From a virus, in the IMG/VR virus record IMGVR_UViG_3300047551_001369, positions 1 through 35,162 of that record: a stretch of 35,162 nucleotides of DNA; one strand, written 5' to 3'. The position numbers were made by a program, and so were the translations under genes. The notes below the pieces were generated by a model. That model made no database searches. It was given only the letters and a program-made list of their open reading frames with translations, and was not told where the DNA came from. Position 1 is the first letter of the stretch. The number at the start of each line of letters is the position of its first letter. Shown here in pieces: positions 2,259 through 19,134 of the stretch.

Positions 2259-3499
2259 TGGTTTTAGAAAAAGGTTTGCGAGTTTGTCCTATTACTGGAG
2301 ATAAAGATCCTATTGAATATTTTAACTTAGGAAACTTACCGCTTGTAAATAACCTATGTGACAGTAGAGAGGAGTCTATTACTTGTCCTAGATATCCTTT
2401 AGCAGTCCAGTACTTCCCACAAAGCGGATTATCGGCTTTAACGCATATTATAGATCCTGATGTTCTATACAAAAATTACACGTATAAATCTGGAGTATCC
2501 TATCCTTATATAGAACATTGTGAGGAAATGTTTCAATTTGTTAATACCTACCTGCAATTAACCGACAAAGATTCAGTTTTAGATATTGGAGGCAACGACG
2601 GTACCTTACTTAAGACTTTTTTATCTCTTAAACCTCATTTGAATGTTTTAAATATTGATGCTTCGGAGAACTTAACAGAACTGGCTATCAAGAACGGTAT
2701 TCCATCTTTAAATTTATTTTGGAATAAAGAAACTGCACAAAGACTTGATAAAAAATTTAAACTAATCACAACAACAAACTGCTTTCAACATACCGAACCT
2801 ATTAGTAGCTTCGTAGAAGGGATATCGTTGAGTTTGGATAAATTCGGTATTTGGTGCTTAGAATTTCCTTACTGGAAAACTAGCTTAGAGACTAATCAGT
2901 TTGATCAAGTATATCATGAACATGTTTATTATTACTTATTAAGGCCTCTAGTAAAGTTATTTGATAAGTATAATTTACGGATAATCAAAGCGGTAAAGTA
3001 TCCTATACACGGAGGTACTATGAGATTACTCATAACACATAAGGGAGAGTTAGGGCAAGCCTTTCAGCCTTGTGATTATAGTATCGAAGATTATTTAGAG
3101 AAAGAAAGCAATACAATACAGGATTACATAGATTGGGGAAAAGGAATAGAGTTGTATATAAAAAAATCTAAAGATTTTATTTTAAACTTAAAAAACCAAG
3201 GTTATAAATTAGCAGGATTTGGTGCAGCAGCAAAAGGATGCATATACTTAAATGCAATGCAACTTACAGATAAAGAAATAGACTACGTAGTCGATGATAC
3301 TAATTTAAAACAAAGCAAATACATTCCAGGTACCGGTATAAAGATAGTAGATAGAACTACCTTAAAAACATCACCGCCAGATTACATACTAGTATTAGCA
3401 CATAATTTTGCAGAGTATATAATAAAGTCTTTAGCGTTGGAAGTTCAAGCAAAATTTATTATATTGTTACCAAGAGTCAAAGTGATAGATCTAAATTAA
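2258..3499 (+). CDS. Sugar C-methyltransferase-like SAM methyltransferase
   Basis: 413 residues arranged like the NDP-4-keto-sugar C-methyltransferases (TylCIII/TcaB9 type): an N-terminal small domain, a class I SAM-binding Rossmann domain (VLDIGGNDGTLL, about 107-118), and a C-terminal domain. The hallmark Y219-H220-E221-H222 (QVYHEHVYYY) matches the spacing of the catalytic Tyr/Glu/His triad known from TcaB9, and HGGTMRLL (251-258) and GFGAAAKG follow as expected. In this family the N-terminal domain normally binds zinc through two CxxC pairs. Here only C10 aligns (CPIT instead of CxxC) and the second pair is replaced near FPQSG, so the zinc site looks lost. It is coupled to the oxygenase gene (TAATG) and followed 4 nt later by a glycosyltransferase, pointing to synthesis of a branched or methylated sugar. 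Confidence 0.78.
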   Translation: MVLEKGLRVCPITGDKDPIEYFNLGNLPLVNNLCDSREESITCPRYPLAVQYFPQSGLSALTHIIDPDVLYKNYTYKSGVSYPYIEHCEEMFQFVNTYLQLTDKDSVLDIGGNDGTLLKTFLSLKPHLNVLNIDASENLTELAIKNGIPSLNLFWNKETAQRLDKKFKLITTTNCFQHTEPISSFVEGISLSLDKFGIWCLEFPYWKTSLETNQFDQVYHEHVYYYLLRPLVKLFDKYNLRIIKAVKYPIHGGTMRLLITHKGELGQAFQPCDYSIEDYLEKESNTIQDYIDWGKGIELYIKKSKDFILNLKNQGYKLAGFGAAAKGCIYLNAMQLTDKEIDYVVDDTNLKQSKYIPGTGIKIVDRTTLKTSPPDYILVLAHNFAEYIIKSLALEVQAKFIILLPRVKVIDLN

Positions 3500-3503
3500 C
3501 TTT

Positions 3504-4283
3504 ATGAAAATACCGGTTATTGGAGCGCCAGTTATGAAAAACCCGCAATGGGTGGAGAGGTTGTATAGGAGTATAGATTACCCTGTAGAAAACTTTGTTA
3601 TATTTAATAATAACGGTAAAGGAGAGATAACACAACAGCTTGAGGAGTTAGATAAAAATAAAAATTACTTTGTTGATAAATTAACAGTATGCCATCTCCC
3701 TGCTAACTTAGGTATTCCTTGCGTTTGGAACTTAATTATAAAATCTTACATAAACGCTCCTTTCTGGATAATAACAAATGACGACATAGCTTTTACCGAA
3801 GGTTTTCTAAAAGAGATGGTACAAGCCTCTCAACAAAACGACATAGGTATAGTTCATGGATATGGAGGAGATTTTAATGACGGATCATGGGACCTTTTCT
3901 TAATTAAAGATTGGGTTATTCAGGAGTACGGATTATTTGATGAAAACTTATCTCCAGCTTACTGCGAAGATGCAGATTACATTATGAGAGTATGGGCAAA
4001 ACCTTTAAAGCGTGTTTACAGTTTAACTAGACCTTACTACCACGGAGATGGATTAGCTCACGAATACTATAAACACGGAAGCCAGACAGTTAAATCAAGC
4101 TCTGAATTACAAATGCGCCTATCTCAAATAAACCAAATTAATTTTGAATACCTAAATAAGAAGTGGGGCGAAGGATGGAGGATGACCGATCCTTACAAAT
4201 ATCCTTTTAATAACGAAGCTTTCCCGATATCAACAACAACTTTCGATTTAGAATTTATTAGAAGCAAACAAATAAACCTTTAA
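3504..4283 (+). CDS. Glycosyltransferase family 2-like protein
   Basis: 259 residues with a GT-A type N-terminus: a first strand IPVIGAP, the strand FVIFNNNGKG after an R-S-I-D-Y-P turn, HLPANLGIPCVWN (typical NxGxxxxxN of GT2 enzymes), and a metal-binding DxD-like motif T-N-D-D at 91-94 in WIITNDDI. A later acidic EDADYIMRVW is in the position of the GT2 catalytic base region (ED in xEDxD). There are no membrane segments, so it should be a soluble cytoplasmic enzyme transferring a sugar from a nucleotide donor. It sits 4 nt after the sugar C-methyltransferase and 10 nt before an oxygenase, consistent with one glycan-modification operon. Donor and acceptor are unknown. Confidence 0.8.
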   Translation: MKIPVIGAPVMKNPQWVERLYRSIDYPVENFVIFNNNGKGEITQQLEELDKNKNYFVDKLTVCHLPANLGIPCVWNLIIKSYINAPFWIITNDDIAFTEGFLKEMVQASQQNDIGIVHGYGGDFNDGSWDLFLIKDWVIQEYGLFDENLSPAYCEDADYIMRVWAKPLKRVYSLTRPYYHGDGLAHEYYKHGSQTVKSSSELQMRLSQINQINFEYLNKKWGEGWRMTDPYKYPFNNEAFPISTTTFDLEFIRSKQINL

Positions 4284-4293
4284 AAATAACACC

Positions 4294-4887
4294 ATGTTTA
4301 CAACTTACACATTTCCTAAAAAAGAAAACGATCCTCAAAATTTCTACTACTACCTTACAAAATTCACTCCAGAAGAACTATCTAAGATAGACCAGGACCT
4401 TAATTCACTGCAATTTGAAGAAGCTACTGTTATTGGAGACGGAAACGAGGGTAAAAAAATTAGATCATCCCGTCTTAAGTGGATACCAAAAACACCACAA
4501 TGGGAATGGCTATATGAACGCTTAATGGCATGTGTTATTGAAGCTAACGAAGTACTTTGGGATTTTAATTTACATCACATAGTCGATAATATTCAATATA
4601 CAGAATATTTAGCTTCTGAGAGCGGTCATTACGTATGGCATCAAGATATAGGCCCTGGTTCGCCATCTCTCAGAAAAGTTTCACTCGTTGTACAATTAGC
4701 AGGCCCTGATGACTATAACGGAGGTGATTTACAATACTGGTTAGGAGGAGACAATTTTGTAACTGCCTCTCGTGATAAAGGTGCAGTATTTGTATTCCCT
4801 TCTTATATGATGCATAGAGTTACTAGAGTAACAAAAGGTATGCGCCGATCTTTAGTGTTTTGGGTAGGCGGAGAACATTTCAAATAA
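4294..4887 (+). CDS. 2OG-Fe(II) oxygenase (PKHD/prolyl-4-hydroxylase type)
   Basis: 197 residues with a clear 2-oxoglutarate/Fe(II) oxygenase signature: H116-Q-D118 in HYVWHQD, the long strand VSLVVQLAGPDDYNGGDLQYW typical of P4H/PKHD-type proteins (a strand then Y-x-GG-x-L), a distal H174 in FPSYMMHRVT, and R184/R185 followed by SLVFWVGG for 2-oxoglutarate binding. Similar proteins are common in T4-like phages of aquatic bacteria, often near structural genes; their substrates are mostly unproven. It is the last gene of the accessory block, and a non-coding stretch with the first putative late-promoter motifs follows before the tail genes. It could hydroxylate a virion protein or take part in the sugar pathway upstream. 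Confidence 0.85.
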   Translation: MFTTYTFPKKENDPQNFYYYLTKFTPEELSKIDQDLNSLQFEEATVIGDGNEGKKIRSSRLKWIPKTPQWEWLYERLMACVIEANEVLWDFNLHHIVDNIQYTEYLASESGHYVWHQDIGPGSPSLRKVSLVVQLAGPDDYNGGDLQYWLGGDNFVTASRDKGAVFVFPSYMMHRVTRVTKGMRRSLVFWVGGEHFK

Positions 4888-5489: not shown

Positions 5490-7259
5490 ATGGCAGAAGC
5501 ATTAATTTCACCAGGCGTATTCCTAAGAGAAAACGACCTTTCTCAGGTAACTGCAGGTCCAGTAACTGTCGGTGCAGCCTTAATAGGTCCTACAGTGATA
5601 GGAAAGCCTAATATTCCCACTCTCGTTACTTCGTATTCTCAGTATAAAGCTAGATTTGGAACTACATTCGTTTCAAACAGCAATACTTACGAATATATGA
5701 CGTCTCAAGCCGCTTACAACTACTTTCAACAAGGAGGTACTTCCTTACTTGTAACAAGAGTAGCTAGCGGCTCTTATACTGCTGCAAGCTCTTCACGTAT
5801 TCCTTGCGGAATTGCAGGAGAGAGTCCATTTGTTCTTGAAACCCTTTCAGTAGGTACTATCATGAACAACAATCAAGGCGTTGATACAATAACCGGCAGT
5901 ATTCTACCTTCTGGTTCAGCAAGTAACGTTAGATGGCAAATTACTCAAGCCGATTCCGCTTCCGGCCAATTTACTTTACTAATCAGGAGAGGTGACGATT
6001 ATAATGCAAACCAGACTGTACTTGAGACTTGGACTAATCTTTCTTTAGATCCAAATCAGAATAACTATGTCGCTTACGTAATTGGAGATCAAACACAAAC
6101 GGTAGCTACAGATAGTGATGGACAGAAGTACTTAGAGATTACAGGAAGCTACCCTAACGCCTCTCTATATGTCCGTGTTAAATCTGTTAATTTACCAACA
6201 CCTAACTATCTAAATCCACAAGGACAAGCTTACACTCAATATACTGCATCAATCCCAACTAATGGAACTGGATCAGAAAATGGAGCCTTTGGCGGTGCAA
6301 CAGGTCCTTTATATGGATGCTTTGGTTTAGCTGCATTAAATTTATACGAAAATATTCCAGTAGTATCTTCAACTGGTGCTACTCCGGGAACTAATATTCA
6401 AGGTGTATTCCCTGAGAACTATACTACTGCTATCAATCTTCTATCTAACCAAGACCAGTACGTATATGATGCAATTTACGCACCTGGTATCTCAAATCAA
6501 AACGCTTCATCAATTGTCGGTAGTCTATTATCTACAGTTCAGAACCGCGGAGATGCTATCGCAGTAGTTGACATGGTTGGATATAATCAAACTATTTCAT
6601 CCGCTACTATATCTGCACAATCTTACGATAACAGCTACGGTGCTACATATTGGCCTTGGGTACAGGTTCGCTCTATTGAAACTGGCCGTTTAAACTTCGT
6701 ACCTGCTTCTGTAATTATTCCTGGAGTGTACGAATATAATGATAAGGTATCAGCTGAGTGGTTTGCACCAGCAGGTCTTAATCGCGGAGGTCTACCAACT
6801 GTAATTCAGCCTGAAAGACGTCTAACTGTAGGACAGCGTAACACGTTGTATTCTGCTAAAGTTAACCCAATTGCAGTATTCCCAGGACAAGGTACAGTGG
6901 TATATGGTCAAAAGACCTTACAAGCTCGAGCTTCTGCACTTGATCGCGTAAACGTACGTCGTCTATTGATTGCGTTAAAAGGATATATTGGTCAAATAGC
7001 ACAAACTCTTGTATTTGAGCAAAATACAGCAGTTACCCGTAATAGATTCCTTTCTCAAGTTAATCCATATCTAGACTATGTACAGCAGCGTCAAGGTCTA
7101 TATGCCTTCCGTGTTGTAATGGACGAAACAAATAATACACCAGATGTAATTGACCGTAACCTACTTGTAGGTGCTATCTACTTACAGCCAACTAGAACTG
7201 CTGAATTCATTCAACTTGACTTCAACATTCTACCAACCGGTGTAACATTTGGAGCTTAA
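5490..7259 (+). CDS. 18: Contractile tail sheath protein (gp18-like)
   Basis: 589 residues. The N-terminus has the hallmark of phage sheath proteins: ALISPGVFLRENDLSQ, then GPTVIGKPNIPTLVTSY and a Phe-Gly shortly after. The C-terminal core, about residues 480-589, is also typical: LDRVNVRRLLIALKGYI, FEQNTAVTRNRFLSQVNPYL, and the final strand with LQPTRTAEFIQLDFNI that joins neighbouring subunits. The variable middle (about 120-280) carries a beta-rich insertion. The protein polymerises around the tail tube and contracts to drive it into the cell. T4 gp18 is 659 residues, so the size is close. The tube gene follows after one small gene, the usual sheath-tube order. A TATTTATT motif 28 nt upstream marks likely late expression. 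Confidence 0.95.
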   Translation: MAEALISPGVFLRENDLSQVTAGPVTVGAALIGPTVIGKPNIPTLVTSYSQYKARFGTTFVSNSNTYEYMTSQAAYNYFQQGGTSLLVTRVASGSYTAASSSRIPCGIAGESPFVLETLSVGTIMNNNQGVDTITGSILPSGSASNVRWQITQADSASGQFTLLIRRGDDYNANQTVLETWTNLSLDPNQNNYVAYVIGDQTQTVATDSDGQKYLEITGSYPNASLYVRVKSVNLPTPNYLNPQGQAYTQYTASIPTNGTGSENGAFGGATGPLYGCFGLAALNLYENIPVVSSTGATPGTNIQGVFPENYTTAINLLSNQDQYVYDAIYAPGISNQNASSIVGSLLSTVQNRGDAIAVVDMVGYNQTISSATISAQSYDNSYGATYWPWVQVRSIETGRLNFVPASVIIPGVYEYNDKVSAEWFAPAGLNRGGLPTVIQPERRLTVGQRNTLYSAKVNPIAVFPGQGTVVYGQKTLQARASALDRVNVRRLLIALKGYIGQIAQTLVFEQNTAVTRNRFLSQVNPYLDYVQQRQGLYAFRVVMDETNNTPDVIDRNLLVGAIYLQPTRTAEFIQLDFNILPTGVTFGA

Positions 7260-7812: not shown

Positions 7813-8298
7813 ATGCCAGTACTAGATCCAAATGAGATAATGTTTACGGCCTACGAACCTACAGTTCAGAACCGTTTCATCATGTATATTGACGGCATTC
7901 CTTCTTTCATGATTAAGAGTGCTACTGCACCCAACATTAACTTGAATGAAGTAAAGCTTGACCATATCAACGTTTACCGTAAGATTAAAGGTAAGGCTGA
8001 GTGGCAAGATATGACCCTCAATCTTTATAATCCAATCTCTCCTTCTGGTCAACAGGCCTGTATGGAGTGGATACGTTTATCACACGAATCTGTAACAGGA
8101 CGTGACGGATACTCTGACTTCTACAAAAAAGACTTGAATTTATCAATTCTCGGTCCGGTAGGAGACGTAGTATCTGAGTGGATTATCAAAGGAGCTTTCG
8201 TTAAGACTGCAAACTTCGGATCTTACGACTGGTCCAATCAAGATGCAATTACGATTGAATTAGGAATTGGAATGGATTACTGTATCCTGAACTACTAA
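7813..8298 (+). CDS. 19: Tail tube protein (gp19-like)
   Basis: 161 residues, matching T4 gp19 (163 residues) in size. Family features: an N-terminal YEPTVQNRFIMYIDGIPSF (strand with N-R-F-x-x-x-I-D-G-I), KLDHINVYRKIKGKAEWQD (the V-x-R-K-x-x-G strand after the variable loop), LYNPISPSGQQACMEW, and a C-terminal strand pair ending in an I-E-L-x-x-x-M-D-Y-C pattern. Hexameric rings of this protein form the rigid inner tail tube through which DNA passes. It follows the sheath gene as in most contractile-tailed phages and has its own putative late promoter and a strong downstream terminator, fitting very high expression of a major tail protein. Confidence 0.95.
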   Translation: MPVLDPNEIMFTAYEPTVQNRFIMYIDGIPSFMIKSATAPNINLNEVKLDHINVYRKIKGKAEWQDMTLNLYNPISPSGQQACMEWIRLSHESVTGRDGYSDFYKKDLNLSILGPVGDVVSEWIIKGAFVKTANFGSYDWSNQDAITIELGIGMDYCILNY

Positions 8299-8400: not shown

Positions 8401-8467
8401 ATATACCACTGTGAAAAGTTGTTTCCTAATGGAAAACTCGTTATATTTAGGTATAAAAATAAATGTT

Positions 8468-8962
8468 ATGAAGAATAGAAATCTCCGATGGAAACTAGAG
8501 CTTATTATCGGTATCCTTATTTTCATCTATACTACAGGTACGGTTATCTGGTATGGACCAGAGAAAATCCTTAATGCTCGTAACGTAGGCTTGCTTCTAG
8601 GCTTTGCTATTGTATTTACTGTAATAAAATTTACGTGGTTCGGAATAATATGGGCCGCTAATATCCTCGAAGATATGTTTGTACCTGTGTTTAAGGATAC
8701 TAGGTTTGAAGAACCCGTAGGTAAGTTTTTCCGTAAGCTAGGTAATCTAGTAGAAAACTTTAAATGGGCCGACCCTAAGGAGAGTATGTGGAGGGCGCAT
8801 GATAGAACTTTAAATGCAATACATTCCGGCGATTTTACTCAGGAGTTGAAAGCAGAGATTGATAAAGAGGAAACTAGTATGGAAGATAGAGATCAATTAA
8901 GAACTTTTATTGTTGGTGCTATCGTTTTTACTGCTGTTATACTACTATACATTTACAGCTAA
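8468..8962 (+). CDS. Small membrane protein with three TM segments, unknown
   Basis: 164 residues from ATG 8468. A GTG at 8411 in the same frame would add 19 residues, but that part overlaps the repeat-rich leader, and ATG 8468 begins a typical basic N-terminus (MKNRNLRWK). Hydrophobic segments lie at about 11-29, 40-63 and 147-163, with an amphipathic or charged middle (70-145). Not recognised. It is placed between tube and tail-assembly genes. Possible roles include a membrane-associated lysis or superinfection protein, but there is no specific evidence for a holin. Confidence 0.7.
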   Translation: MKNRNLRWKLELIIGILIFIYTTGTVIWYGPEKILNARNVGLLLGFAIVFTVIKFTWFGIIWAANILEDMFVPVFKDTRFEEPVGKFFRKLGNLVENFKWADPKESMWRAHDRTLNAIHSGDFTQELKAEIDKEETSMEDRDQLRTFIVGAIVFTAVILLYIYS

Positions 8963-9029: not shown

Positions 9030-9794
9030 ATGAGCACACCTCCTAAAATGAACCTTCCTACGGAAACCGTAGAACTACCTTCCAAAGGTCTTGTTTATCC
9101 CAAAGAGAACCCTTTATCCTCCGGGGTTATCGAAATGAAGTATATGACAGCAAAAGAGGAAGATATACTGTCAAACCCAAACTATATAAAGCAAGGCAAC
9201 GTTTTCGATAAGCTATTAAGCTCTCTTATAGTTTCCAAAATTAATTACGACGATTTAGTAACTGGAGATAAGAATGCTATACTAATTGCCGCCCGTATTC
9301 TCGGTTACGGAAAAGATTATTTAGTTAAAGTACAGCATCCACTTACAGGAGAAGAAGAAACGGTTAACGTGGATCTTTCGGCTATAAAGAATAAAGATAT
9401 TGACTATACTGAACTGAAAGGTGTAAATGAATTCACATTTACTCTCCCTATATCTAAAAATGAAATAACCTTCAAATTGCTTACTCATGGAGATGAGAGG
9501 CAAATTGACGAAGAGTTAAAAGGACTTAAAAGAGCAAATTTGTCTGCTGAAGTTACTACAAGACTCAAGCAAACAATACTTGCGGTAAATGGAGATAGGG
9601 AGAAAAAAACGGTTAGAGATTTCGTAGATAATTTTCTCCTAGCAACTGATGCCAGAGCATTTAGGGACTATCTTAAGAAAGTATCACCAGATTTAGATCT
9701 AACATTTACTTTTGTAGGCTCCGACGGTTACACACAGGAGGGTGTAGAGATTCCTTTAGGACTTTCATTTTTTTACCCTTCCGTCAGAGTATAG
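9030..9794 (+). CDS. T4 gp26-like baseplate/tail assembly chaperone, upstream frame
   Basis: 254 residues ending in LGLSFFYPSVRV. The stretch VELPSKGLVYP (about 16-26), followed by an acidic IEMKYMTAKEEDILSN and a DKLLSSLI segment, is typical of the T4 gp26-like baseplate-hub/assembly family (PF12322-type, recalled from memory). Its position between tube and tape measure is where tail assembly chaperones are encoded in long-tailed phages. Reading continues in the +1 frame: from 9760 the other frame is open and encodes conserved-looking sequence that joins the ORF at 9871. The T7 run at 9768-9774 is a plausible slip site, giving a short product from this frame and a fusion of about 362 residues. 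T4 gp26 is 208 residues. Confidence 0.82.
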   Translation: MSTPPKMNLPTETVELPSKGLVYPKENPLSSGVIEMKYMTAKEEDILSNPNYIKQGNVFDKLLSSLIVSKINYDDLVTGDKNAILIAARILGYGKDYLVKVQHPLTGEEETVNVDLSAIKNKDIDYTELKGVNEFTFTLPISKNEITFKLLTHGDERQIDEELKGLKRANLSAEVTTRLKQTILAVNGDREKKTVRDFVDNFLLATDARAFRDYLKKVSPDLDLTFTFVGSDGYTQEGVEIPLGLSFFYPSVRV

Positions 9795-10119
9795 ATCTAC
9801 TCTCTTCAGACAAATACACGAAATAGTCTTTCACGGTAAAGGCGGCTACGATTGGAATACTGTCTATAATATGCCTATTTGGCTTCGTAGATTTACATTC
9901 AACAGTATGAATGAATTTTACGAAAAAGAACGTGAAGAATACGATAAGGCTTCTGGTAAAGGAGAGCTATTGACAGAGAAAACTAAAACCTTTAAACCCC
10001 CTATTTCTGATTTACCAGAAACGAAACCTACGTATACTACTAAAGTAACACGTCCTAATATTCCAAACCCTGCTATAGCCAATAAAGCTATATATAGTTC
10101 TAAGACAGGTAAAAAATAA
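9760..10119 (+). CDS. Downstream frame of tail assembly chaperone, frameshift extension
   Basis: This frame is open from 9760 to TAA 10117-10119. The first ATG is at 9871, but the codons before it already read convincing protein (LFRQIHEIVFHGKGGYDW, then NTVYN) that runs without a break into MPIWLRRFTFNSMNEFYEK, so the ATG is likely an internal Met. No start codon with a leader is seen between 9760 and 9871, implying access by a +1 (or -2) shift from the upstream gene. The last 60 residues are Pro/Thr/Lys-rich and low complexity. By analogy with gpG/gpGT-type chaperones, the long form would bind the tape measure (next gene) and the tube protein during tail assembly. The alternative is a separate 82-residue protein from ATG 9871, or a sequencing error joining two parts of one gene. 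Confidence 0.72.
   Translation, partial: DFHFFTLPSEYRSTLFRQIHEIVFHGKGGYDWNTVYNMPIWLRRFTFNSMNEFYEKEREEYDKASGKGELLTEKTKTFKPPISDLPETKPTYTTKVTRPNIPNPAIANKAIYSSKTGKK
9768..9774 (+). promoter_or_regulatory. T7 slippery run, candidate programmed frameshift site
   Basis: Seven T residues read TTT TTT T(AC) in the upstream frame. A tRNA-Phe on TTT 9771-9773 can re-pair perfectly one base downstream (9772-9774; +1) or two bases back (-2); either puts the ribosome in the open frame ACC-CTT-CCG. Both frames are open together only from 9760 to 9791, so the shift must occur here. No obvious pseudoknot was identified. Confidence 0.5.
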
Positions 10120-10140: not shown

Positions 10141-12408
10141 ATGGAGTTCAACAAGAAATTTTATGCTGCAAATACTCCCGGACAAGGAGGTGGAGGTAAT
10201 ACTCCTCAACAAGGGCCGAGCAATGATGATTTAAGTAGGGCAGAAAAATTAGCTGAGATTTTTGCTGAACAGTTAAATACTATTAGAGCTATTTCGGAAT
10301 TATGGAAAAATCAGTTGAATCAACAGGCTCAAACTCTAGACGATACCAGTAAGGATATTGTTAAGAGTATAGGCAGGGATTTATATAGAGAATTACAGAG
10401 CGCTAAAAAACAAACTGCTGCATTAGCAGATAAATCTTCAGATCTTACTAAAAATTTAGGATCTGCTAAAGATATAGAGAAAAAAATAAACGAATTAAAA
10501 AGACAGCAGAATTCTATAAGCCGTCTTGCAGCAGAACTAGAATCAGAAGGTATACAACTTACAGCCGAACAGTTAAAGTTTCAAGAACAGATAACTGAAG
10601 AATTAAAAAAACAAGAAGATCTATTAAACAAGCAGCTTAAAATTAAAAAACAACAAGAGTCTTTAATTAAAGGTTTTCAAAGAGCTTTAGTAGGGATAAG
10701 TAATACACCATTTATTGGAGGTTTTCTTGGAAATCTAATTAAAGCCGATAAGGTTGTAGAAGAGATGAATAAAAAAGCTGCTGAAGGAGCTAGTAGATTG
10801 AAAATTTTATTTACAGGACTCGATCAAACACTTAAAAATATTTCATTCGGACTGATAGGGCTTTTGCTAAAAGGATTTGAATCTCTTATCAGGCTTGTTA
10901 TTCAGTTTAACCAGAAGACTTTTGATCTTGCAAAAAGTTTAGGTATATCTGTTGATAAAGCAGCAGACCTACAGCAAAAATTTTTACAGATATCCTTATC
11001 TTCTAAAAATGCAGGACTAACAGCTAAAGAATTAGCCGAGACATACGGACAACTTGCTAGCACTTTAGGATTCTTACCTCCTGCTACTAGAGAGTTTGCT
11101 GAATCTGCAGCCTTAATACAGAAACGTACCGGTGCTTCAGCTGAAGCGATGAGTGCTCTTGCTACACAATCTGCGATATCGGGTAGAACTCTAGAAAAGA
11201 CTTACAGTACTTTAGTAGGCACAGCGCAAGTAGAAGGAGCTAGAAATAAGCTCTACGTTACACAAAAGCAGTTACTTGAAGGAATTGCTAAAACTAGTTC
11301 TACTGTACTAATTAATTTTAAGGGAAGTTTAGAAGCATTAGCAGGTGCAGTTGTACGAGCAACTAAGTTAGGTACAACACTCGATCAAGTAAATAAACAA
11401 GGTGATACATTATTAGATTTTGAAACTAGTATAGCTAAAGAGTTTGAAGCACAGGTCTTAACTGGACGAGACCTAAACCTTACACGAGCAAGAGAACTTG
11501 CTTTAGCAGGAGATACTCGAGGATTAATGGAGGAGTTGAATAAGCAAGGAGCTTCTTATAGCAAGTTCATGAGTATGAATGTTATTGCTAGAAAAGCAGA
11601 AGCTGAAGCTCTAGGTCTATCTATCGATGAGTATTCAAAAATTTTACTACAGCAGCAGCAAGCTAACAAACTTGGTGTTCAACAAGGAGAGTCGTTAAAT
11701 GAGGCCTATAACCGTTTATTAAAAGAAGGTAAAACTAGAGAGGAAATTGCAAAAGATTTAGGTAAAGCTGCAGAACAGGATTTATATAGAGCCTCTATTC
11801 AAGATAAGTTCAATGCAGCTATGGAGAGATTTAAAGATATTCTTGGAAGTACCCTTCAAGGTCCGGTAGCCGGTTTGTTAGAGAAATTCATTGCATTTGT
11901 TGGCAATACACAAAAAATGCAAGAATTAGCAAATAAAATAAAAGGTGCTTTTGAAGCTATGGTAAGTGTTTTAAGACAGTTACCGAGTATAATGAGTAGT
12001 GCAGTAGCTATTGCCAAAGTTTTAGCTTCTTTAGCAATTGGAAGAGCAGTAGCAAGTATGATAGCTGCTTTTGCCGGAATGGGACCTCTTGCACTGATCG
12101 GAGGTTTAGCGGTAGCAGGAACAGCGGGAGCATATCTATTCGGATTAGCAGGATTAGGGGGCGGAAGCGAAGCTCCAAGTGCCACAGGACCTGTAACAGG
12201 AGCACCTGAAAAAAGTACTACAATGACTGCCCCCGTTAATCCCGCTGTAGCTGCTGCAAAGACTGCTGCACCTATCACTTCTGCACCAGAAGGAGGTACA
12301 GCTTCTATGGGAGGAATGAGAGAAAGAGGAGACGTTTATTTAGATAAAGAAAAAGTAGGTTATATTATTTTAGGTAGAAACCCAGTATATGGATTAAATA
12401 CAGCGTAA
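10141..12408 (+). CDS. Tape measure-like tail protein
   Basis: 755 residues, mostly helical. Residues about 30-190 are charged coiled coil (repeated Leu/Lys/Glu/Gln). A hydrophobic segment follows at about 234-256 (FGLIGLLLKGFESLIRLVIQF), then a long alanine-rich helical middle, and a hydrophobic Ala/Gly/Ile stretch at about 620-672 as expected for a tape measure that enters the membrane. The end (about 675-755) is Pro/Ala/Thr-rich with a final strand (VYLDKEKVGYIILGR). Its place directly after the chaperone pair and before baseplate genes fits the tape measure (role of T4 gp29, 590 residues). At about 0.15 nm per residue the tail would be roughly 113 nm, by the usual rule of thumb. Assignment rests on composition and position, not sequence recognition. 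Confidence 0.78.
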   Translation: MEFNKKFYAANTPGQGGGGNTPQQGPSNDDLSRAEKLAEIFAEQLNTIRAISELWKNQLNQQAQTLDDTSKDIVKSIGRDLYRELQSAKKQTAALADKSSDLTKNLGSAKDIEKKINELKRQQNSISRLAAELESEGIQLTAEQLKFQEQITEELKKQEDLLNKQLKIKKQQESLIKGFQRALVGISNTPFIGGFLGNLIKADKVVEEMNKKAAEGASRLKILFTGLDQTLKNISFGLIGLLLKGFESLIRLVIQFNQKTFDLAKSLGISVDKAADLQQKFLQISLSSKNAGLTAKELAETYGQLASTLGFLPPATREFAESAALIQKRTGASAEAMSALATQSAISGRTLEKTYSTLVGTAQVEGARNKLYVTQKQLLEGIAKTSSTVLINFKGSLEALAGAVVRATKLGTTLDQVNKQGDTLLDFETSIAKEFEAQVLTGRDLNLTRARELALAGDTRGLMEELNKQGASYSKFMSMNVIARKAEAEALGLSIDEYSKILLQQQQANKLGVQQGESLNEAYNRLLKEGKTREEIAKDLGKAAEQDLYRASIQDKFNAAMERFKDILGSTLQGPVAGLLEKFIAFVGNTQKMQELANKIKGAFEAMVSVLRQLPSIMSSAVAIAKVLASLAIGRAVASMIAAFAGMGPLALIGGLAVAGTAGAYLFGLAGLGGGSEAPSATGPVTGAPEKSTTMTAPVNPAVAAAKTAAPITSAPEGGTASMGGMRERGDVYLDKEKVGYIILGRNPVYGLNTA

Positions 12409-14583: not shown

Positions 14584-14888
14584 TGCAATCAAGATATCAA
14601 AATATACCAGTAACTAGATCAGATGTAACAGGAAGTTTGTATTATCAAACTAACCTATACCCTACTGTTCAACCAACTGATACAGATTATTATATAATTA
14701 CAACTATCAACGATAGACTTGATTTAATTGCTTTTGACTTTTATCAAGATTCAAGTCTTTGGTGGATAATATCATCTGCAAATGCATTACCCGGTGATTC
14801 TATTTATCCACCTGTCGGGATACAGCTTAGAATACCTGTAGATATAAAGACAATTTTAGGTCAGTATAATTTAGTTAATAATGTCTGA
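14583..14888 (+). CDS. 53: Baseplate wedge protein with LysM-like fold (gp53-like)
   Basis: 101 residues. The core pattern is typical of gp53-like wedge proteins with a LysM-like domain: YPTVQPTDTDYYIIT, NDRLDLIAFDFYQDSSLWWI (the D-R-L-D-x-x-A-x-x-x-Y/F-x-D-x-x-L-W-W motif), SSANAL, and a closing PPVGIQLRIP. T4 gp53 is 196 residues, so this is a minimal form holding only the LysM-like core. It overlaps its neighbours by one base upstream (TAATG) and eight bases downstream, so the three baseplate genes are translationally coupled. Confidence 0.82.
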   Translation: MQSRYQNIPVTRSDVTGSLYYQTNLYPTVQPTDTDYYIITTINDRLDLIAFDFYQDSSLWWIISSANALPGDSIYPPVGIQLRIPVDIKTILGQYNLVNNV

Positions 14889-17800
14889 TATTAAGTTATC
14901 TAATGTTATTGGTGCCCCTTTTAGTCCTTTTGTTCTAGAACAACTTCAACAAAGAGCTAGTCAAAATAGCACTGCAACACGAACAAATGAGCAGGTTTTG
15001 TTTCTAGCAAACAAAATGTCTTGGGCAAGACTAGTATCTTCAGTGAATGTAGTCCTACCGCCTATTGCAGCAACTCCCGGTATTTTTCAAGTAGGAGCAA
15101 ATGTTGCATATCCGGCTTTCTATGAAAGCTTAGGTTTAGATTATACCGACTATCCTCAACCAGATTCCCTAGCTAAAAATTGGATTCTAGAAGCAGGTAC
15201 TTCTATACAGAGTGGAAATGGGGTAACCTTGAGAAAGGGAATTGGTGTTAATGGAGCATACGGCTTAGGAGGTACAGAAGAGTTAGGATATACACCAATG
15301 CCTGGATTAAATTCTGTACAAGTACAGACGATGGGTACTCTCGGTTCATTGAGACAGGCTACAATTAGTTTCAAGGTCTGGAATATGAACCAGCTAAATG
15401 TTATCGAAGCTTTATACTTTAGATTAGGGTATTCGATGTTACTAGAATGGGGGCATGTTCAATATTTTCAAAACAATGGCGCTTTTATACAAGACGGTAT
15501 TTACGGGATTAATAATCCTTTTTCGGATAATAGAAGGAAAGAAGATATACAACAGGAAATAGCTAAAAAAGTCAAAGAAACAGACGGCAATTATGACGGA
15601 ATGCTAGCTATTGTTTCGAACTTCAACTGGTCATTCAATCAGAGCGGAGGATATGATTGTACTCTAAAGTTAATCGGGTTAGGTGCGATTATGGATTCTT
15701 TGAGAATTGATCAAACCTATGCCCTTCCCCCCGGATCTATTGCTAGATTCAAAAAAGATCAAGATGCGCTTGAAGCAGAGGCTCAGCGACGTAGAAATCG
15801 AAATGTAGTTAATCAGACACAACAACAATCACAGCAACGAGAACAGGTCAAACCTCGACCAAGAAATATTACCGAAGCGTACGAGAGAGCAAAAGAATAC
15901 GCAAATTTTCAAGGAACTAGAGACGAATATATTGCACAATATGGAGTTAGACAGTTTTTAACTAACCCAGAACGCTTTAATAACAATAATAGCGCGTTTA
16001 TTAATATTCCCAATAATGATAGTACTGTAGCTGATGAGACTTATAATGGTTTATGGATTTTTTATACAGATAGATCGATCTTAGTTAACCCTAAAGAGAA
16101 TAGCCCTGTAAATGTAAAAATTAATCTTACAAAGATAAACGAATTAGCAAGACTTTTTTTTAGACAGAATCCGGCTAGCGCAAGAAGTACTTACGGAGAA
16201 ACTCCCGTCCATAATACTGCTCTCGTCAACTACGTACAGTTAGGTACCGAGGCTTTCTTAACAGGAGGAGGTACAAGATTTGAACAAGTTCCGTTAGATA
16301 GCATATTACGAGGTAGATACGCTCTTTCCGATACAGTAAACGATTTGTTGCAGCTAAGTATTGACTCACCAGTAAAAAATGACGACCTATATTTCAGGTT
16401 TGATCAAATAAAGGTTGTAGCTGCGAATCGAGATAATCCGGTAAGTAGAAAGTTGATTTTAGATACTCTGTATGCGCGTTTAGTAGATACAAAAGTTATT
16501 TCTGCATCGATAACTTCCGTTGATTATACAACTCCCTATGCGACAATAAAAGGAGTTTTCACATTAAAGGTAGATACTCCTGGAATCAACAACGCACCTT
16601 CTACTGAAAAGCTTGTAACTTTCAATTTTACAACCACTAACCCAGCTATTATTGATGGTTCAGATATACAGGAAACAATAACGCCACCAACTACTGTAAC
16701 TCAGACAGGGAATGACGGAAATACTACAGGAAATGCTAACGGAGCAGATATAGAAACTACTGAAGCTCCGAAAGGCTTTCAATCTGCCTTGCAAGCTATG
16801 CTTACTATTGTAAAAGCACGCGTACAAGCTACTAGTAATTTTGAATTATCAGTTAGTGTTATAGATATAACTGAAATCACCCAAGAATTCTACAATAGCG
16901 GTATATTAAAAGATATCTTTATAACAACAACCGCTACTAACAACAAAAAATTAATAACACCCAGAAAACCGCCAGTAGCAGGACCTAACGGATTACCTTT
17001 CGATATAACTAATTACGCATTAAAAGGATTTAATACTGAGTTAATGACAAACCCAACGCTCTATGACCAGGTTAGTGGAGTTGAGTTTGATAAACTCTGT
17101 AAAGCACTTATAGTAAGATATCCCAACACAGGTGCAGATGAGGCCCTAACGAACTTACTTGTACCTGTTTATATCTCATTCGGGTACTTACTTGCGTTTT
17201 TAAATAATATGTGTTTAATATACGATAGCGAGAAGCCGCAAACAGGTAGAGAGCCTGCTAGCGGTAAAAAACATCCGTACGTTTATATTGACTTCAATCC
17301 AAATACTAACTTCTGTTTAACATCACCGCAGCAATTTTCTATCGATCCTAAAGTTTGTCTAGTACCAATGCAAGCTAATCTAGAACAGTACCAGACTATT
17401 TTCCCTGATTCTGTTTTAGAGAAAAATACAAGAGGAGAAGTTGTAGGAATTAAAGGAAATCAAGCCCAACCTCTTTTTGACTCTACAACAGGTAATTCCG
17501 TTTCTACTGAAATTATAAAATTTGCTCCATTTCAAAATACAGACCTATCTCCTTATCAAGGAAAGATTATGAATATTCTCTTAGAAGTAGACTATCTCTT
17601 AGGTCTTGCAAAATCTTTTCAAGGAAGCGACCCAGAACATGCAGTCAGATTGCAACCTTTTTTAGAACAAATTGTTACGGATATTAATAAGTCTCTCGGT
17701 AATATGAACCTTTTTAAGGTCAAGTATAGAGATGATACAAATACAATTCAGATACAAGACTCGCAATGGACTCCTTCATTAGATAAGGAAGATTCTATAA

Positions 17801-19134
17801 TGGTACAGGAAGCTAGTTCTCTACCCCGCGGTATGCTCCCTATTTTCGGAAAGCAAAGTTTAGCTAGAGAATTCCAATTTAAGACTGTTATTTCAACAAA
17901 GTTAGCAAGTACTATTGCGATCTCAGCTCAGGCTGCAACTGGATCTATAAACGCAACAGACCATTCCTCTTATAGCTGGTTAAATCAAAATTTTCAAGAC
18001 AGATACAAACGTTATATTCAAGATCCAGATAGTAAAGCTAGCGGTGCATCAAATGATGGAAGACAGACTAATAACGAGGTTTCTAATGAAGTAAAAGCTG
18101 CTGCAATGTTCAATCAGCACGTTAAAAACGTTTACGATAATCCTTCAAATTACTCTAACGAAAATGCAGAGTTAGCGAAGAATTATTATATTGAAGCAAT
18201 ATCTAAAACTAAATCGGAAGATCAAACTACTGTATCTGCACCTTTTATTCCTGCTGATTTAGAGATAACAATAGACGGAGTAAGTGGTATAATTATGGGC
18301 AACGCTTTTCTTATACCGGAGGATAGAATGCCACGATCTTTAAGAGGAGTTGGCGGTATTCCGAAAGTAGGATTCATTGTTACTTCACTTATGCACACTA
18401 TTGAAAAAAATCAATGGTTGACTAAGATGCGAGGTCAAATGATTAAATTGAGAGGTTATAGAGGTTTTGGAACAGTAGCGACAGTAGGTGGAGCTGCAAG
18501 AAGAATCACTAGTAGTACATTGCCGCCAGGAGCAGCTAACGATTATTCAGGAGCTACACAGGTAGCAAGTCCCGACTCTATAAATACGAGAAATTTTAAT
18601 GAATACTACCCGGGATATACATTTACAAGAGGACAGTCAGATATTAACTTATCTTCCTACGGACTGCAACCTTTAACAGAAAATGAGATTGTAGATAGCA
18701 CTACAGAGAATAGATTTAAGTTAGGTACCCTAACATCTCCTGTACAGTATTTCGTTATACATCATACTGGAGGAACTGGAACTGCGCAAAATGTTTTTGA
18801 AGTTTTCTACTCAAGAGGTTTACCTGCTCAATATGTAATCGACAGAAACGGAAGGATCTATAGATTTATGCCAGATGGAGCAAAAGCGTATCATGCCGGT
18901 CCAGGATGGAATTCAAGATCTATAGGAGTAGAGATCATAGCATTAAACGATAGGGATGTAACAACAGCTCAAAGAAATGCTGCAATTAGGCTAGCGCAAT
19001 TTTTAGGATTCAAAATAGCAAATATAGTGGGTCACGGAAAAATAAGTAATCAAAAACAGGATACGGAAGGGTTTACTGTCGTTAATTTCATCAATCCTAA
19101 CTATAGACCAGGTTTTGATCCTACATATGGGTAA
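14881..19134 (+). CDS. Giant baseplate/hub protein with C-terminal AmpD-like amidase
   Basis: 1417 residues. The N-terminal region (1-270) looks structural, with a recognisable block LNSVQVQTMGTLGSLRQATI, then VWNMNQLNVIEALYFRLGYSM, LLEWGHVQY, that I recall from large baseplate-hub-like proteins of T4-like phages. A Gln/Arg-rich linker follows near 298-330, then a long unrecognised middle. Residues about 1285-1410 form a zinc N-acetylmuramoyl-L-alanine amidase (Amidase_2/PGRP fold): YFVIHHTGG with ligand H1294, YHAGPGWNSRSIGVEI (H1338), GHGKIS with H1385, and K1392-x-D1394 matching the AmpD Lys/Asp. All expected catalytic residues are present. The protein is probably the tail-tip lysin that opens peptidoglycan during injection, the role of the T4 gp5 lysozyme, here by a different enzyme fused to a hub protein. 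Confidence 0.85.
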   Translation: MSDIKLSNVIGAPFSPFVLEQLQQRASQNSTATRTNEQVLFLANKMSWARLVSSVNVVLPPIAATPGIFQVGANVAYPAFYESLGLDYTDYPQPDSLAKNWILEAGTSIQSGNGVTLRKGIGVNGAYGLGGTEELGYTPMPGLNSVQVQTMGTLGSLRQATISFKVWNMNQLNVIEALYFRLGYSMLLEWGHVQYFQNNGAFIQDGIYGINNPFSDNRRKEDIQQEIAKKVKETDGNYDGMLAIVSNFNWSFNQSGGYDCTLKLIGLGAIMDSLRIDQTYALPPGSIARFKKDQDALEAEAQRRRNRNVVNQTQQQSQQREQVKPRPRNITEAYERAKEYANFQGTRDEYIAQYGVRQFLTNPERFNNNNSAFINIPNNDSTVADETYNGLWIFYTDRSILVNPKENSPVNVKINLTKINELARLFFRQNPASARSTYGETPVHNTALVNYVQLGTEAFLTGGGTRFEQVPLDSILRGRYALSDTVNDLLQLSIDSPVKNDDLYFRFDQIKVVAANRDNPVSRKLILDTLYARLVDTKVISASITSVDYTTPYATIKGVFTLKVDTPGINNAPSTEKLVTFNFTTTNPAIIDGSDIQETITPPTTVTQTGNDGNTTGNANGADIETTEAPKGFQSALQAMLTIVKARVQATSNFELSVSVIDITEITQEFYNSGILKDIFITTTATNNKKLITPRKPPVAGPNGLPFDITNYALKGFNTELMTNPTLYDQVSGVEFDKLCKALIVRYPNTGADEALTNLLVPVYISFGYLLAFLNNMCLIYDSEKPQTGREPASGKKHPYVYIDFNPNTNFCLTSPQQFSIDPKVCLVPMQANLEQYQTIFPDSVLEKNTRGEVVGIKGNQAQPLFDSTTGNSVSTEIIKFAPFQNTDLSPYQGKIMNILLEVDYLLGLAKSFQGSDPEHAVRLQPFLEQIVTDINKSLGNMNLFKVKYRDDTNTIQIQDSQWTPSLDKEDSIMVQEASSLPRGMLPIFGKQSLAREFQFKTVISTKLASTIAISAQAATGSINATDHSSYSWLNQNFQDRYKRYIQDPDSKASGASNDGRQTNNEVSNEVKAAAMFNQHVKNVYDNPSNYSNENAELAKNYYIEAISKTKSEDQTTVSAPFIPADLEITIDGVSGIIMGNAFLIPEDRMPRSLRGVGGIPKVGFIVTSLMHTIEKNQWLTKMRGQMIKLRGYRGFGTVATVGGAARRITSSTLPPGAANDYSGATQVASPDSINTRNFNEYYPGYTFTRGQSDINLSSYGLQPLTENEIVDSTTENRFKLGTLTSPVQYFVIHHTGGTGTAQNVFEVFYSRGLPAQYVIDRNGRIYRFMPDGAKAYHAGPGWNSRSIGVEIIALNDRDVTTAQRNAAIRLAQFLGFKIANIVGHGKISNQKQDTEGFTVVNFINPNYRPGFDPTYG

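Follow-up and report, generated by a model that had tools for sequence, protein, structure and literature searches.

Known tail assembly chaperone systems

Tail assembly chaperones of the lambda gpG/gpGT type comprise a short form and a rare long form, the latter made by a −1 shift (Xu 2004; PMC5009743). The locus described here is like lambda in having an overlapping pair of open reading frames (ORFs) 5′ of the tape measure gene, which would give a short form and a rare frameshifted long form. In contrast to the −1 shift of lambda, the shift proposed here is +1 at a UUU-pyrimidine site, and the N-terminal domain belongs to the T4 gp26 family.

The tail-chaperone frameshift rule has T4 as its named exception (PMC5009743). 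In T4, gp26 and gp51 are separate genes; the statement in PMC10885494 that cites Vladimirov 2022 describes them as one short gene plus a long, fused gene that is separate from it. T4 gp26 is like the short form, and T4 gp51 has an extra C-terminal segment beyond PF12322, as in the long form. T4 differs from the present locus in having two separate genes and no frameshift. Poly-T −1 signals in T4-like tail-chaperone genes are cited as known where PMC12846349 refers to Vladimirov 2022.

KVP40 and the Kyanoviridae (e.g. Synechococcus phage Bellamy) have gp26 and a small 'gp51' ORF, and the annotation of the KVP40 record notes a likeness to the gp51 C-terminus. These phages share with the present locus PF12322, the Phe-Phe position near the stop, and a homologous C-terminal domain. 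They have a T TTT TTC heptamer, the −1 frame, and GAGGG at −15, whereas the clade of the present locus has NNV TTT TTT T, the +1 frame, and GGAGG at −31.

For the tail chaperone of the haloarchaeal myoviruses HF1 and HSTV-2, a +1 shift at TTT-CGC has been proposed (PMC7230728, PMC8211752). This resembles the present locus in the proposed +1 shift at UUU followed by a pyrimidine and in the myovirus tail chaperone, the likeness being drawn by site only. HF1 and HSTV-2 differ in being archaeal viruses, and their site has been compared in six genomes only.

Other +1 sites are UCC UUU CGU in influenza PA-X and AGGGGG N3 CUU UGA C in bacterial prfB. In both, as proposed for the present locus, the P-site tRNA slips +1 onto an overlapping codon and the added base is a pyrimidine. 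Phage GXN1, a relative described below, has the same UUU CGU as PA-X. The present locus differs from prfB in that the features of the RF2 form, a Shine-Dalgarno-like (SD-like) motif 3 nt upstream and an A-site stop, are absent; the motif lies 26 nt upstream and the A-site codon is UGG or UAC.

Gene map of the locus

The window, i.e. the whole stretch of DNA analysed, is a 35,162-base virus record (IMGVR_UViG_3300047551_001369, positions 1 to 35,162). Its tail genes and the elements of the chaperone locus are as follows.

5490..7259, + strand, tail sheath gene (phrog_23, E 7e-73)
7813..8298, + strand, tail tube gene (phrog_4542, E 4e-22)
9030..9794, + strand, putative TAC-N, the T4 gp26-family tail assembly chaperone, short form, 254 aa (PF12322, phrog_150, AlphaFold)
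9737..9741, + strand, GGAGG, SD-like element, 26 nt 5′ of the slip codon (conservation)
9757..9759, + strand, TAG 3′ of GGAGG and 5′ of the slip site, bounding the +1 frame upstream (sequence)
9760..10119, + strand, +1-frame ORF, 119 aa; putative C-terminal domain of the long form (TAC-NC), coded from 9775 (conservation, dN/dS)
9765..9767, + strand, TCA codon, its last base a non-T that caps the run upstream (clade comparison)
9768..9774, + strand, putative slip site TTT TTT T; codon 1 at 9768-9770, codon 2 at 9771-9773, next base T
9792..9794, + strand, TAG stop of the short form; in the +1 frame its bases fall within the codons for YR (sequence)
9871..9873, + strand, first in-frame ATG of the +1 ORF, coding for the M of YNMP within the conserved core (alignment)
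10141..12408, + strand, probable tape measure gene (position as in Flavobacterium phage immuto; weak PF10145 match, E 0.006)

The chaperone locus sits between the tail tube and the probable tape measure genes, in the order given by the first-pass annotation, with one additional ORF (8411-8962) between the tube gene and the gp26-like ORF (9030-9794). In Flavobacterium phage immuto, the gene after the equivalent locus is annotated as tape measure. The gp26-like ORF and the +1 frame overlap at 9760-9791 (32 nt). The +1 frame has no start codon ahead of the ATG at 9871 and ends at the TAA at 10117-10119. The first-pass annotation was exact in all frame coordinates, namely the stop at 9794, the +1 frame open from 9760, the overlap, and the T7 run at 9768-9774. 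It expected a product near 362 residues, and the computed translation of the +1 fusion comprises 362 aa. Since the TAG at 9757-9759 lies between GGAGG and the slip site, internal initiation from GGAGG in the +1 frame is excluded.

Elsewhere in the window, a galactosyl transferase-like gene (3504-4283) and a 2OG-Fe(II) oxygenase-like gene (4294-4887) are located just 5′ of the tail genes. A 1417-aa protein encoded at 14881-19134 contains an amidase/endolysin-like C-terminal stretch at residues about 1270-1394.

The two protein parts

The ORF at 9030-9794 matches PF12322 (T4_baseplate) with E 1e-7 and 32.3 bits against a cut-off of 24.5, and phrog_150 (baseplate hub) with E 2.7e-15. For structure prediction, the N and C parts were folded separately; a mixed N+C alignment of the whole fusion misplaced the C rows. 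Rows from annotated phage records were left out of the input alignment. The AlphaFold prediction of the N part has a mean pLDDT of 92; among predicted structures, those closest to it are T4 gp26-like baseplate hub proteins of phages, including that of SP-15. The best solved-structure matches to the N part are all weak, among them the HK97 chaperone (gp13, 2ob9) with Z 4.7, rmsd 4.2 over 94 residues, and a Foldseek probability of 0.21. Profile searches of solved structures gave no match for the N part or the C part.

The C part is predicted with moderate confidence (pLDDT 74) to comprise three helices, at residues 4-20, 27-31, and 35-60 of the translation of 9775-10116, followed by a tail without regular structure. 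The median pairwise dN/dS of the C-domain is 0.14 (840 pairs of relatives), which means purifying selection. The window has dN 0.18 and dS 1.06 against relative L008, and dN 0.15 and dS 0.84 against L010. The best-conserved part, EYRxxLFxQIHEIVFHGxGGYDWxTVY, lies within the +1-frame codons 9775-9870, the very codons whose conservation the first-pass annotation had put forward as decisive. The most conserved stretch starts well 5′ of the ATG at 9871.

The C-domain of the relatives with the −1 arrangement aligns to the T4 gp51 C-terminus (hhalign probability 96%, E 1e-8) and is in turn matched by the C-domain of the +1 clade (77%, E 2e-5). The direct match between the window-clade C-domain and gp51 is weak, though in register (2%), and thus the homology between the two is transitive, via the −1 clade.

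Spread of the +1 arrangement

Relatives were gathered by scans with both protein parts, which gave hundreds of matches, and by further scans. The resulting +1 set contains 259 loci, corresponding to 131 clusters at 90% identity and 44 at 70%. In 164 of the 165 loci of the first round of scans, the C-domain frame is shifted by +1 against the gp26-like ORF, a frequency that far exceeds chance. The sole exception, L138, has its reading frame disrupted upstream, around 2970-3005, by an error or a mutation. Isolated phages sharing the +1 state are Flavobacterium phage immuto, Microcystis phage Mel-JY01, Bacillus phage SP-15, Listeria phage LIS04, and Streptococcus phage GXN1. None of the 259 fetched relatives contains an in-frame fusion of the two parts, i.e. 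the continuous frame that the first-pass annotation would have read as a sequencing error.

Homopolymer runs are error-prone, and with the frame disruption of L138 in mind, a sequencing or assembly error or a decayed gene might be suspected. However, the arrangement is common to 259 relatives and to the isolated phages, and lacks any in-frame counterpart, so it is not a sequencing error. Decay is countered by the dN/dS of 0.14 and by the lack of a relative with a continuous frame. The probability of error or decay is thus negligible. The programmed frameshift that was suggested from the window alone, joining a gp26-like chaperone to a downstream domain, gains strong comparative support from the 259 loci.

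Putative slip site and direction of the proposed shift

The window has the slip site TTT TTT TAC, and most relatives have TTT TTT TGG. Variants in other relatives are TTC TTT TGG (L169, L171, and L174 groups), TTC TTT CGT (phage GXN1), TTT CTT TGG, TTT CTA TGG, and TTT CTA TTC (L004), with TTT CTT and TTT CTA TGG being common in a marine subclade. A UUU followed by U or C is present at codon 1 or 2 in all 131 clusters at 90% identity and all 44 at 70%. TTC at codon 1 is invariably followed by TTT at codon 2, and CTN at codon 2 is invariably preceded by TTT at codon 1. All 103 representatives with Phe at codon 2 use TTT for it, compared to a TTC share of 19% among Phe codons elsewhere in the ORF (p 2e-10, with representatives counted as independent despite their kinship).

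All variants allow tRNA-Phe to re-pair at +1, several preclude re-pairing at −2, and in several no homopolymer exceeds four bases. A P-site UUU or CUU followed by a pyrimidine, as in +1 slippage of the RF2/PA-X type, is present. A classical −1 heptamer X XXY YYZ with a −1-frame product is not; the C-domain of the window, like that of the +1-clade loci, is coded in the +1 frame. Re-pairing at −2 of the Mu type is not possible in all members, the TTC TTT and TTT CTA members being the exceptions.

The downstream frame is reachable by +1 or −2 alike, and the first-pass annotation had left the choice between them. In a −2 programmed frameshift, the tRNA-Phe on the second UUU would slide back two bases, and the T7 run of the window permits full re-pairing. 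The direction is nevertheless +1, because the relatives with TTC TTT TGG, TTC TTT CGT, and TTT CTA cannot re-pair at −2. Together with the many TTT CTT and TTT CTA TGG sites of the marine subclade, this leaves the −2 part of the earlier proposal very unlikely.

Slippage of RNA polymerase on the T7 run would produce mixed mRNAs, some of them short of one U. This is in line with the presence of the T7 run in most relatives and with the capping of the run by a non-T, but relatives with TTTCTTTGG, TTTCTATGG, and TTCTTTTGG, which have no homopolymer longer than four, keep the +1 geometry. Polymerase slippage is accordingly an extremely improbable source of the long form. The T7 run itself, although found in most relatives, is not the essential element; as judged by site comparison, one UUU with a following pyrimidine is (131 of 131 clusters).

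No conserved RNA structure of note was found by RNAalifold in five ranges. The range −36..+18 has a modest stability excess over synonymous randomisation (mean z −1.4), which is probably due to conserved G+C-rich motifs. For a downstream hairpin, the mean z is about −0.8 and not specific.

Start codons and probable natural loss of the shift

UUU is missing altogether from two loci only, L179 (TTC TTG TAT) and L184 (TTC CTT TGG). Each of them encodes the C-domain in an ORF of its own, which has an ATG directly after the stop, and in a quick tree the two form a single branch nested in the +1 clade. Since UUU is lost in exactly these two loci, the constraint vanishes once the shift is not needed. 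The ORF at 2232-2552 of L179 and the equivalent ORF of L184 encode a stand-alone C-domain with an added N-terminal stretch (MENIDNLLREIQ...).

A separate gene for the C-domain can also be considered in the window, starting either from the ATG at 9871 or from a non-standard codon within the overlap and possibly coupled to the upstream stop. L179 and L184 indicate that a stand-alone C-domain can work, and deposited annotations call a short downstream ORF; in the deposited phage genomes L002, L003, L005, L006, and L007, the C-domain is annotated as a short truncated ORF or not at all. In the window, however, the ATG at 9871 lies inside the conserved core, and a start there would drop the best-conserved helix (predicted helices 4-20 and 27-31 would be removed). 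An ATG, GTG, or TTG between the slip site and the core is absent from 81 of 95 representatives, including the window. Furthermore, the UUU rule is universal except in exactly the two loci with a separate ORF. A separate gene is thus a poor prospect, with little probability left to it, and the +1 frameshift remains the preferred reading.

The upstream GGAGG motif

An SD-like 5-mer is present in the range −45..−2 in 89 of 109 representatives of the +1 clade, compared to 6% of background stretches, and mostly starts at −31. The CTT subclade has the motif in 73 of 73, nearly always at −29 or −28. The Glu codon of this motif (codon −10) is GAG in 86 and GAA in 3, with GAG at 18% in the background. 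By comparison of these sequences, GGAGG about 26-31 nt 5′ of the slip site is kept beyond coding need. To our knowledge, the 26-nt spacing matches no established +1 stimulator.

Strong (5-base) Shine-Dalgarno (SD) motifs are absent from the 27 gene starts checked in the window, and the host therefore probably does not rely on SD. Flavobacteriia are known for not relying on SD. For F. johnsoniae, this lack of reliance has been described (PMC12421855).

The −1 relatives

All 81 unique loci of the cyanophage/KVP40 set have NNT TTT TTC at the Phe pair and a −1-frame C-domain. The jumbo phages Atu_ph07, XacN1, and LR756511 likewise encode the C-domain in the −1 frame. A T precedes the TTT TTT run in 2 of 102 clusters of the +1 clade and in 65 of 65 of the −1 clade (Fisher p 1e-44); with clustering at 70%, the numbers are 2 of 36 and 6 of 6 (p 5e-6). 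Asn before the run is coded by AAC in 57 cases and AAT in 1, compared to 32% AAC elsewhere. The −1 clade has GAGGG at −15 in 60 of 80, a spacing close to that of −1 stimulators such as dnaX. Few changes of direction are required on the tree, which is a quick one with unsure placement of long branches.

The first-pass annotation regarded the locus as extending the frameshift rule to T4-like phages. This is only partly new, as KVP40, cyanophages, and some jumbo phages have a −1 version at the same codons. A tentative and rather doubtful proposal is that one tail-chaperone family has undergone switches of frameshift direction (−1 or +1) at one and the same pair of codons, through changes in the second codon, in the base preceding the run, and in how far upstream the SD-like motif lies (−15 versus −31), and that the distant GGAGG would be a new long-range +1 stimulator in phages whose genes otherwise lack SD sites.

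Proposed mechanism and meaning

Of all readings of the locus, by far the best supported is that it encodes the N/NC tail assembly chaperones of a contractile-tailed phage and that a +1 frameshift at UUU-pyrimidine gives the long form; on sequence grounds, this is very probably correct. Conserved here are both proteins, the +1 frame, the UUU-pyrimidine rule, and the non-T capping of the run. Most ribosomes would read 9030-9794 and make the short form TAC-N, a protein of the T4 gp26 kind. A minority would shift forward by one base with the tRNA-Phe on UUU of UUU UUU U; the new pairing of this tRNA would be with the overlapping UUU, or with UUC where relatives have UUU C. Translation in the +1 frame would then continue to 10119 and give the 362-aa TAC-NC with its helical C-terminal domain. 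Both the occurrence of the shift and its frequency are inferred. The A-site codon (UGG/UAC) and the upstream GGAGG may promote it. The roles of the two parts would follow those in lambda gpG/gpGT, with the N part coating the tape measure protein and the rare C part bringing in the tail tube subunit.

In practical terms, deposited phage genomes either lack an annotation of the long form or give it truncated. The codons used by the −1 and +1 versions are homologous, which makes the two versions a natural experiment on what sets the direction of slippage. In this locus and its relatives, the same two products would be made in three ways, by a −1 shift, by a +1 shift, and from separate genes. The locus would thereby bring the gp26 family of T4 under the tail-chaperone frameshift rule.
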